Shown here one piece after another: positions 60,563 through 63,629 of a DNA stretch of 64,000 bases (within the stretch, counting starts at the first letter, position 1; each line of letters starts with the position of its first letter). The notes under the pieces are model-generated. The model saw only the letters and a program-made list of their open reading frames with translations, was not told the origin of the DNA and searched no databases. Origin of the DNA: Pseudodesulfovibrio indicus (GTDB lineage: Bacteria; Desulfobacterota; Desulfovibrionia; Desulfovibrionales; Desulfovibrionaceae); contig NZ_CP014206.1 in NCBI RefSeq assembly GCF_001563225.1, positions 2,542,001 through 2,606,000 on the forward strand, given 5' to 3'. The translations under genes were made by a program, and so were the position numbers.

Positions 60563-61444
60563 TTACAAAAGACCCGCGTTTTTCAGCACGGCTGCCAGTT
60601 TGGGTTTGTTCTCGTCCTGCAGGGGGACGATGGGCAGACGGAACTGGGCGTCCTTGAAAATACCCATCATGGCCAGGGAGGTCTTGACCGGGATGGGGTT
60701 GGTCTCCATGAACATGGCGCGGTTGACAGGGGCCATCTTGAGGCTCAGCTCGATGGCTTTCTCGTGGTCCTTGTCGAAAAAGGCCTTGCACATGTCGCTC
60801 ATGGTCTTGGGCATGATGTTGGAGATGACGGAGATGACGCCGACGCCGCCCACCGCGAGCAGGGGCAGGACGGTGAAATCGTCGCCGGAGAGCAGCTGGA
60901 AATCACGGCCGCACTGTTCGACCACCTCGGCGCACTGGCAGAGGTTGCCGGTGGCTTCCTTGACCGCGATGGCTTCGGGCACCGCGTCCTTGATCATCTT
61001 CAGGGTGGACGGCAGGCAGTTCAGGCCGGTCCTTCCGGGCACGTTGTAGATGACCATGGGCATGGAGGCCGCATCGGCGATGGCCTTGAAGTGGGCCACC
61101 AGGCCGCCGGGGGTCGGCTTGTTGTAGTAGGGGGTGATCTGCAGGGCCGCGTCCGCACCGGCCTCCTTGGCCAGTTTGGTCAGCTCGATGGCCTCCTTGG
61201 TGGAGTTGGAGCCGGCGCCCGCGATGACGGGAACGCGGCCTTTGGCCTGCTCCACGCAAATTTTGATGACCTTTCCCTGCTCGGCGTGGGTCATGGTCGC
61301 GGCTTCGCCGGTGGTGCCGCAGGGCACCAGGCCGTCGATTCCCTGCTCGATCTGCCATTCAATGAAATCGCGATAGGTGGATTCGTCCACCTCGCCATCC
61401 CTGAACGGCGTCGAGAGAGCGGTAAATGCTCCTCTTAATTCCAT
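60563..61444 (-). CDS. dapA: 4-hydroxy-tetrahydrodipicolinate synthase
   Basis: 293 residues, (beta/alpha)8 lyase. GAFTALSTPFRDGEVD, VPCGTTGEAATMTHAEQ, PYYNKPTPGGLVAHF and NVPGRTGLN with the Tyr residues, and the Schiff-base Lys in AIAVKEATGNL. First committed step to lysine and diaminopimelate. ATG 61444 gives six bases from AGGAGG; the ATG at 61450 is too close. Confidence 0.96.
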   Translation of the reverse strand: MELRGAFTALSTPFRDGEVDESTYRDFIEWQIEQGIDGLVPCGTTGEAATMTHAEQGKVIKICVEQAKGRVPVIAGAGSNSTKEAIELTKLAKEAGADAALQITPYYNKPTPGGLVAHFKAIADAASMPMVIYNVPGRTGLNCLPSTLKMIKDAVPEAIAVKEATGNLCQCAEVVEQCGRDFQLLSGDDFTVLPLLAVGGVGVISVISNIMPKTMSDMCKAFFDKDHEKAIELSLKMAPVNRAMFMETNPIPVKTSLAMMGIFKDAQFRLPIVPLQDENKPKLAAVLKNAGLL

Positions 61445-61492
61445 TGTCATCTCCTCCTGAAGTATGGATGCATCGGAAGGGCCCTGTCGGGA

Positions 61493-62356
61493 TCAATCCC
61501 CGAACATGGCGTCGACTTCCGGGTTGTCCTTGATCGTGTCGTTCATGCCTATGGAAGAAGTCTTATAGTTCGTCACTTCCTTCCACGCAAATGAATTCTC
61601 TCGTTGAGGCCACTGGTAGACGGCCACCTCGACCAGGGAGCGCCCCTTGTCGTAGGGGCGGACCCACAGCGCACGCCCGTCGGCCAGGATGCGCCCGTTG
61701 ACCCCTGCACCGGACCCGCTGCCGAGCAGGATGTCTGGAACCGATTCGGCGCGGGCCTGGAGGTAGGCGTTTTCCGCCACCCAGCCCCAATCGCACAGTC
61801 CGATGAGCAGATCCACCCCGTCGCGTTCCTTTTGAATCCTGGCCGACAACCTGCGGATGAGGTCGTCCGAGGGTTGATCCTCGTCGAGGCCAAGGGAAGG
61901 GAAGCGAAGGAAGCCGACCTTGCGGCCGCCGTCAACGGGGATGACCGTGTAGGGCTCTTCCCGGGCGGTCTTCTGCCAGGGCCAGGCCGGGATGGAGTCG
62001 GCTCGCAGGGCTTCGGCCTCGGCCGGGGAGAGCAGCCCCACGTCATAGCCCATGAAGCCGAACGCCTTGTTCATGGCCGCCATGGTCTCGGCCAGCCCCG
62101 GGTTGCCGCCCGGCCGCAGAAATTCATAGGCACCGGAAACAAGCAACCTGGGAGAGTCCGTTTTATGAACGTCAAAAAAATACGTGGCCCGACGGGCCAG
62201 TCCACCGAGGGTGCGACCGCCTCAGGTGGGACATGGCTTCACCGTGCCAAACGTATTCGCCGAATAAAGGATGGTCAGAACAGAGCCCTGTGCGTGGGCA
62301 ACGCCGCACACAGGGATACAGACCGCCAACAAAAGGCAGTATATGAGCCGTCGCAT
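61493..62356 (-). CDS. UshA/metallophosphatase-like exported protein with in-frame TGA (candidate selenoprotein)
   Basis: Reading through the TGA at 62224-62222 gives 287 residues. ATG 62356 begins a signal peptide (RRLIYCLLLAVCIPV, cleavage after AHA). Then GSVLTILYSANTFGTVKPCP, T, TGA (residue 45), GGRTLGGLARRATYFFDVHK. The GGLARRAT segment is a landmark of the UshA/5'-nucleotidase metallophosphatase domain. The TGA falls where the context gives Cys-Pro-Thr-X-Gly-Gly. A hairpin at 62185-62199 could be a SECIS. The usual metal ligand motifs (TNDxHG, DAGD) read SANTFG and SGAYEF, so normal catalysis is doubtful. Start codon is one nt after the HU stop. Alternatives: pseudogene or base error. 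Confidence 0.7.
62185..62199 (-). promoter_or_regulatory. SECIS-like hairpin 3' of the in-frame TGA
   Basis: On the minus strand UGGCCC - GUC - GGGCCA: a 6-bp perfect stem with a 3-nt loop starting with G. The loop begins 28 nt after the UGA. The published bacterial SECIS model wants a 4-16-bp stem, 3-14-nt loop with G in the first two positions, 16-37 nt after UGA, and all of these are met. GC-rich genomes form such hairpins by chance, so this is supporting evidence only. Confidence 0.55.
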
Positions 62357-62357
62357 C

Positions 62358-62633
62358 CTATTGGTTGATGAATTCCTTCAGCTCTTTGCCGGGACGGAAA
62401 AAGGGAAGTTTCTTGGGCTTGACCTGGACCACGGTACCGGTCTTCGGATTGCGCCCGGTGTACCCTTCGTAGTCCTTGATCTTGAAGCTGCCAAAACCCC
62501 GAATCTCCACGCGGTCGCCTTCCAGGAGTGCTTCCTTGATGGAGTCCACGAAGGCGGAAACCACCTTGGTAGCCTCGTCTACGTGCATTTTTTTCTGTTC
62601 TGACAGAGCCTTGATCAACTCGCTCTTATTCAT
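62358..62633 (-). CDS. HU/IHF-family DNA-binding protein
   Basis: 91 residues. MNKSELIKALSEQ, VEIRGFGSFKIKDY and GRNPKTGTVVQVKPKKLPFF give the HU/IHF fold with the beta-arm Pro. Bends DNA as dimer. Strong ribosome-binding GGGGGAAC region upstream. Its stop is one base from the ATG of the TGA-containing gene, so the two are translationally coupled. Confidence 0.93.
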   Translation of the reverse strand: MNKSELIKALSEQKKMHVDEATKVVSAFVDSIKEALLEGDRVEIRGFGSFKIKDYEGYTGRNPKTGTVVQVKPKKLPFFRPGKELKEFINQ

Positions 62634-62770
62634 GATGTTCCCCCTGAAACATACGTTGCCCGCAGGTTCCGTTATTGGTCCTGTGAGGTAACAAAAAAGA
62701 AATCTATCCAGAAATTCTCACTAACTATGCCGAAAAATAACTCTTTTCGTCAACAACTATTTGATAAATT

Positions 62771-63629
62771 TCATTCGGACGGAAAATCTTTCAGGATGGG
62801 CCTTCCGCCGATCCGTTCCAGGTTGTCTTCCCGGTACCGGATGAGCTTCTTGGCGATGCTGGTAATGTCCTTGGCCGCCTTGGCTTTCGGGGCGTATCTC
62901 ATGAGCGGGGTCTGGCGCCGGACCGCTTCGACGATGGTCCGGTCGTGGTGCACGAATCCCAGGTTGCGCAGCTCCAGACTCAGGAAATTCCGGCACGCGG
63001 CGTTAAGCCTGTCGAAGGTCTGGTTGGCCTCGGCCGCGTTGGTGGCCTGGTTGACCAGGACCAGGAAATCCTTCACGCCGTGCTGGGTCGCCAGGATTTT
63101 GATCATGGCGTAGCTGTCGGTCAGGGAGGTCGGCCGCCCCCCCCCCCCCCCCCCCCCCCCTGCTGTCGGTCAGGGAGGTCGGCTCCGGGGTGACCACCAC
63201 CACGCGCAGCTGGGTCAGGGCGGCCAGGGAGAGCACCGTCTGGCTGATGCCGGCACCCAGGTCGAGCATCAGGAAATCGTATTCGCCCGCCAGGGAGATG
63301 AGCTTCTTGAACAGGATGTCCTGGAGGTCCTCGTCCATCTCGACCAGCTCCGGCACCCCGCTGGTGGCGGGCAGCATGTCGAAGCCGTCCTCGATGGAGA
63401 CCAGCACGTCCTCGGCATCCACGCCGGTCTGCAACAGGTCGTGCAGGTTGCGGTCGGGGGAGATGCCGAGCAACACGTCGAGGTTGGCCAGGCCGAGGTC
63501 GCAGTCCATGAGCATGGAGGTCATGGACGCCTCGTGCATGGCGTAACCCAGGTTGAGCACGATGTTGGTCTTGCCGACCCCGCCCTTGCCGCTCATTATG
63601 GCGAGACTGAGAGTATTGTTGTGGTTCAT
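62771..63629 (-). CDS. FlhG/MinD-family ATPase, disrupted by duplication and poly-G tract
   Basis: The N-terminal part has the deviant Walker A SGKGGVGKTNIVLNLGYAM and the Asp of DCDLGLANLDVLLG. LMLDLGAGISQTVLSLA and VVVVTPEPTSLTDS follow. Then a 22-bp repeat plus 24 Gs (gene sense) interrupts the frame. The C-terminal part (YAMIKILATQHGVKDFLVLV...) continues in another frame to 62771. Removing 49 bp restores 269 residues, right for FlhG/YlxH, which sets flagellar number or place. No flagellar genes lie in the window, so MinD-like function elsewhere is possible. Confidence 0.8.
63113..63183. repeat. 22-bp direct repeat flanking a 24-C homopolymer
   Basis: A 22-bp sequence at 63113-63134 (starting GCTGTCGGTCAGGGAGGTC) recurs exactly at 63162-63183. 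Between them lie CG, 24 Cs (63137-63160) and T. Offset is 49 bp, which shifts the flhG frame by one. Looks like a poly-G read-tail artefact carried into the assembly. Confidence 0.9.

Follow-up and report, generated by a model that had tools for sequence, protein, structure and literature searches.

A UshA-like gene of Pseudodesulfovibrio indicus very probably encodes a selenoprotein with a CxxU motif and an apparently lost metal site

Introduction

In a 64,000-nucleotide (nt) stretch of the Pseudodesulfovibrio indicus genome (contig NZ_CP014206.1, positions 2,542,001 to 2,606,000; hereafter the window), a minus-strand gene for a UshA-like protein is interrupted by a TGA, which raises the question of whether this codon is read as selenocysteine (Sec) and, if so, what the protein does. 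The frame runs from ATG 62356 to a terminator that ends at 61493, and its sole in-frame TGA is codon 45 (62224-62222), as the original prediction, made from the sequence alone, had it; the terminator, described there as TAA-type, is a TGA as well. We consider it highly probable that this is a selenoprotein gene of the family NF049981, in which UGA-45 is read as Sec and whose product is exported, has lost nearly all residues of its metal site and has Cys-42 and Sec-45 as its working centre. The features concerned are these:

61493..62356, minus strand: gene for a 287-residue member of UshA-like selenoprotein family 2, with Sec as residue 45 and terminator TGA at 61495-61493; NF049981 match of 316 bits
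62222..62224, minus strand: putative Sec codon UGA, codon 45, in C-P-T-U-G-G; TGA, TGC and TGT at 93, 24 and 2 of 119 homologous sites
62291..62356, minus strand: putative signal peptide, residues about 1-22, ending AHA/Q, read by eye from the sequence
62185..62199, minus strand: apical hairpin resembling a bacterial selenocysteine insertion sequence (bSECIS), 6 base pairs (bp), loop GUC, loop 28 nt after the UGA (row L013)

The N terminus reads MRRLIYCLLLAVCIPVCGVAHA, the putative signal peptide, followed by QGSVLTILYSANTFGTVKPCPTUGGRTLGGLARRATYFF, in which C42-P-T-U45 of the read-through protein forms a CxxU motif. Model confidence in the predicted structure was low over residues 1-20, within the putative signal peptide (mean 58-59). 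A signal peptide had been part of the original prediction and was again recognized by eye; export, claimed with it, is a putative consequence of that reading.

Results and discussion

Codon 45 is TGA or a cysteine codon in all homologues examined

To read the column of codon 45 by alignment, we used 119 distinct homologous sites, made up of 30 loci from a search of the host's bacterial family and 89 fetched stretches, and including two relatives below the family cut-off (L154 and L155). Eight further matches of that search lie outside this set: three fragments, each about 110 residues long and with a TAG (G080, G109 and G133), and five weak ones (E 2.5e-6 to 1e-4, in G140, G074, G117, G007 and G093). 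The codon was TGA at 93 sites, TGC at 24, TGT at 2 and any other at none, so that no unrelated residue appeared where the original prediction had asked for either Sec or Cys. Because the homologues have TGA at 93 of the 119 sites and Cys at the remaining 26, the TGA of the window gene exceeds what chance would give. A Cys precedes the TGA by three residues in 92 of the 93 TGA genes and precedes the Cys in 24 of the 26 Cys genes. Twelve further loci, separate from the 119, had TGA in eight cases (L052, L053, L054, L056, L057, L060, L061 and L063) and TGC in four (L055, L058, L059 and L062), several of them (e.g. L052, L053 and L060) not being independent of genomes among the 119.

The source genome, a single contig of 3,966,573 bases, holds all four genes of the selenocysteine machinery that the original prediction had proposed as a check, each above its cut-off: tRNA-Sec (selC, 81.2 bits), selB (396 bits), selA (618 bits) and selD (328 bits). 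The selD match (L048, G000:C1:420357-421286) itself carries an in-frame TGA, so that SelD is probably a selenoprotein too. Thus, selenocysteine at codon 45 is strongly supported at the sequence level, and the gene very probably encodes a real selenoprotein.

A hairpin after the UGA is constrained in TGA genes

The stem of the hairpin downstream of the UGA starts 22 nt past it, and the 21-nt stretch folds with an energy of -10.4 kcal/mol; a 67-nt stretch gave a z of -2.25. The rules for bacterial SECIS elements, as set out in PMC13188914, call for a loop of 3-9 nt with G in one of its first two places, a stem of 4-16 bp, a spacing of 16-37 nt and an energy of at most -7.5 kcal/mol. The window gene's hairpin meets all four, as do those of 81 of the 93 TGA genes in the same register, compared with 5 of the 26 Cys genes.

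Since the hairpin coincides with the codons of the conserved GG-x-ARR, we tested the two base pairs that join third codon positions, where changes are synonymous. Both pairs form in 86 of the 93 TGA genes versus 9 of the 26 Cys genes (Fisher p 3.5e-9). When alignment columns were shuffled, the pairing observed in TGA genes was reached in 0 and 21 of 5000 shuffles, and thus beat the shuffles, whereas that of the Cys genes was reached in 3459 and 4158 of 5000, with no excess. Relatedness of the genes, evident in a tree of 111 proteins, weakens these p-values. On that tree the Sec/Cys label requires six changes (5-6 over bootstraps), and among six independent Sec/Cys pairs the hairpin went with Sec in 3.7 on average, with the opposite in 0.0 and was equal in 2.3. 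There is, then, a constraint at the RNA level in the TGA genes that is absent from the Cys genes.

The gene belongs to a known family

The read-through protein matched NF049981, "UshA-like (seleno)protein family 2" of NCBIfam, with 316 bits (cut-off 140) over positions 1-261 of 262. With this full-length match and the same CxxU, we found no difference between the family and the window protein. NF041198, "UshA-like (seleno)protein" (UshA_like_PCGU), scored 39 bits, below its cut-off of 275, and was homologous over an N-terminal stretch, residues 8-79 (E 3.7e-10). This family, which is that of the COG0737 UshA-like selenoprotein, resembles the window protein in that stretch and in having Sec nearby; it differs in that its motif is CxU and its profile 519 positions long, against 262 for NF049981. 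The COG0737 selenoprotein with CxU appears in a 2008 ocean survey (PMC2398784) and in a 2022 review table (PMC9312934). Family 2 is itself listed in a 2026 review table as "UshA-like selenoprotein family 2, NF049981, CxxU, WP_420705249.1, GA", where GA stands for GenBank annotated (PMC13188914), and UniRef or NCBI already names homologues P0007, P0011, P0012, P0026, P0079 and P0081 as family 2.

Hence the relationship to UshA stands, on the profile match and on the structural matches described below, as does a selenoprotein with CxxU, on the codon tally, the machinery and the hairpin. The claim of a new family fails, because NF049981 is curated in NCBIfam and the family is tabulated in PMC13188914; judged from sequence, the gene is a member of this known family. 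Neither the read-through protein nor its segment downstream of the TGA matched any Pfam model at E up to 1, and a literature search found no paper on a Desulfovibrio metallophosphatase selenoprotein.

The predicted fold is that of a metallophosphatase and its metal site is apparently lost

The predicted structure has the N-terminal metallophosphatase fold of the UshA/5'-nucleotidase type. SoxB tops the structural matches, which come from a VIA-align look at Foldseek's top 1000. The listed targets are mostly 462-565 residues long, two being constructs of 336 residues, and the aligned ranges stop by their residue 370; the window protein, with 287 residues, lacks the C-terminal substrate-binding domain.

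We counted the residues of the metal site, which we take to be DxH, GD, GNHE, a lone His and GHSH, in 111 of the 119 rows, L154 and L155 being excluded and six rows under 150 residues dropped, as for the tree. The window protein keeps none of the eight and has one His in its mature form. Position by position, they are kept in 9, 5, 9, 0, 0, 3, 0 and 0 of the 111 homologues; 90 homologues keep none, 16 keep one and 5 keep two, and the whole DxH survives in one. The window protein differs from E. coli UshA, Thermus 5'-nucleotidase, CD73 and SoxB in that these positions are nearly all replaced, in lacking the C-terminal domain and in having CxxU. Of the predicted metallophosphatase domain, the fold is borne out and, because of these replacements, the activity probably not.

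L154 and L155, two distant relatives, carry Cys in the Sec column but lack Cys-42, and their first ligand position is an Asp (FSGD); they are possibly true metal enzymes.

A proposed periplasmic CxxU protein and its alternatives

In the mechanism that we propose, SelB and tRNA-Sec would decode UGA-45 as selenocysteine, guided by the hairpin, and export would then take the protein to the periplasm. In its mature form it would be a single N-terminal domain of the UshA/SoxB type, with no C-terminal domain and nearly all metal-site residues gone, and hydrolysis of phosphate esters would have been lost with them. The Cys-42/Sec-45 pair may then be the working centre of a periplasmic protein of thiol/selenol redox chemistry or of sulfur-species handling. 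The recoding signature, the machinery genes, the constraint on the hairpin, the predicted fold and the replaced ligands are computed results, from which the insertion of Sec itself, the export, the redox role and the substrate are inferred.

A number of points weigh against this reading. The hairpin register was chosen after the sequences had been seen, and 12 of the 93 TGA genes fail the rules in it; the sign test on the independent Sec/Cys pairs was not significant (median p 0.125); and Rfam gave no match at E up to 1 across positions 61000-63000. L150 is the only one of the 93 TGA genes without Cys-42 (KPEAGU). The ligand equivalences were drawn from profile alignments that are weak (best E of the chain 0.00091) and not from model distances, and the stretch aligned for the two later His motifs falls short of significance when taken alone. 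Finally, the role of Sec may be the binding of a metal, or of a sulfur species, and not redox chemistry.

An alternative that we regard as unlikely is that the protein has remained a metal-dependent esterase of the UshA or SoxB kind, its active site rebuilt so that Sec or Cys has newly taken on the part of metal ligand or catalytic residue. Against it, no old ligand is kept in more than 9 of the 111 homologues, the DxH is whole in a single one, and there is no C-terminal domain, although the alignments behind the residue equivalences are weak.

A narrower form of the proposed mechanism, which we hold with low confidence, would have the protein act on intermediates of the sulfur cycle, for example in persulfide or thiosulfate transfer. 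SoxB acts on SoxY-bound sulfur, and by analogy its place at the top of the structural list would be consistent with such a role; so would the frequency of the family in the host's bacterial family (101 of 149 genomes) and the Desulfovibrio-like organisms from which the named homologues come.

That codon 45 is a true stop, or its TGA an error of sequencing, with only a 217-residue product made from an open reading frame at TTG 62146 or the gene decayed, finds some favour in the database entry for the source genome (P0002), which is this 217-residue form, in the many relatives there that are likewise cut, and in a suspicious poly-G insert in a neighbouring gene, by which the assembly may not be flawless, but the codon tally, the complete Sec machinery and the RNA-level constraint found in TGA genes and not in Cys genes make it scarcely credible.

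For the CxxU protein, a wider picture, which seems to us as apt to prove wrong as right, is that a UshA/SoxB metallophosphatase scaffold without its metal site now serves by itself as a selenol/thiol protein of the periplasm, centred on CxxU. Its gene would have kept an operon-like position downstream of hup and in many cases upstream of dapA, with about six exchanges of Sec for Cys on the tree and, in some genomes, a Sec and a Cys copy side by side. Membership of the family adds little in itself, an NCBIfam model being in existence. Its chemistry is what could matter: the selenoprotein is unusual in having a phosphoesterase fold with the metal site apparently lost and Sec or Cys kept at all 119 sites examined. 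Genes with TGA and genes with Cys, some having the hairpin and others not, offer a natural comparison for the constraint on bacterial SECIS elements, and the conserved place beside hup and dapA is an entry point for genetics. The SECIS constraint in the TGA forms only, the apparent loss of the metal site and the hup/dapA synteny were computed here; they did not appear in the passages of the literature consulted, and we make no claim that they are unpublished.

Neighbouring genes, copies and distribution

Two genes, whose names we presume from their sequences, flank the selenoprotein gene:

62358..62633, minus strand: HU-type DNA-binding protein gene, directly upstream, its stop ending 1 nt before the ATG; conserved neighbour
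60563..61450, minus strand: DapA-type (dihydrodipicolinate synthase) gene, directly downstream; conserved neighbour

At 95 of the 119 sites an HU homologue lies no more than 600 bases upstream of the Sec codon, and at 55 a DapA homologue lies no more than 1500 bases downstream. Both counts may be too low, because the flank in 89 of the stretches is only some 500 bases. The neighbourhood may reflect no more than shared transcription. In eight genomes (L034, L036, L037, L070, L078, L079, L080 and L087) a Sec copy and a Cys copy stand side by side, with the Cys copy adjoining HU.

Within the host's bacterial family, the genomes with NF049981 above cut-off represent 36 of 44 genera. Across the phylum, some relative at E up to 0.001 was found in 122 of 297 genomes, and NF049981 exceeded its cut-off in only 4 of the 297, all in the host's bacterial family. 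The relatives below cut-off are many in the phylum (e.g. L158-L162), and often have one TGA inside the match and open frames of about 300-560 codons; they may point to a broader group of UshA-like Sec proteins that lies between NF049981 and NF041198.

A scan of the window for frames that continue across a TGA and have a Cys close to it returned 32 rows, the UshA-like gene included; by eye, the other frames look like chance frames. At 63113-63183 on the minus strand, a gene that is presumably MinD/FlhG-like is interrupted by a run of 24 G (63160-63137), flanked on either side by a 22-base direct repeat (63183-63162 and 63134-63113). This run looks like a sequencing or assembly artefact, the alternative being a real slippage tract.
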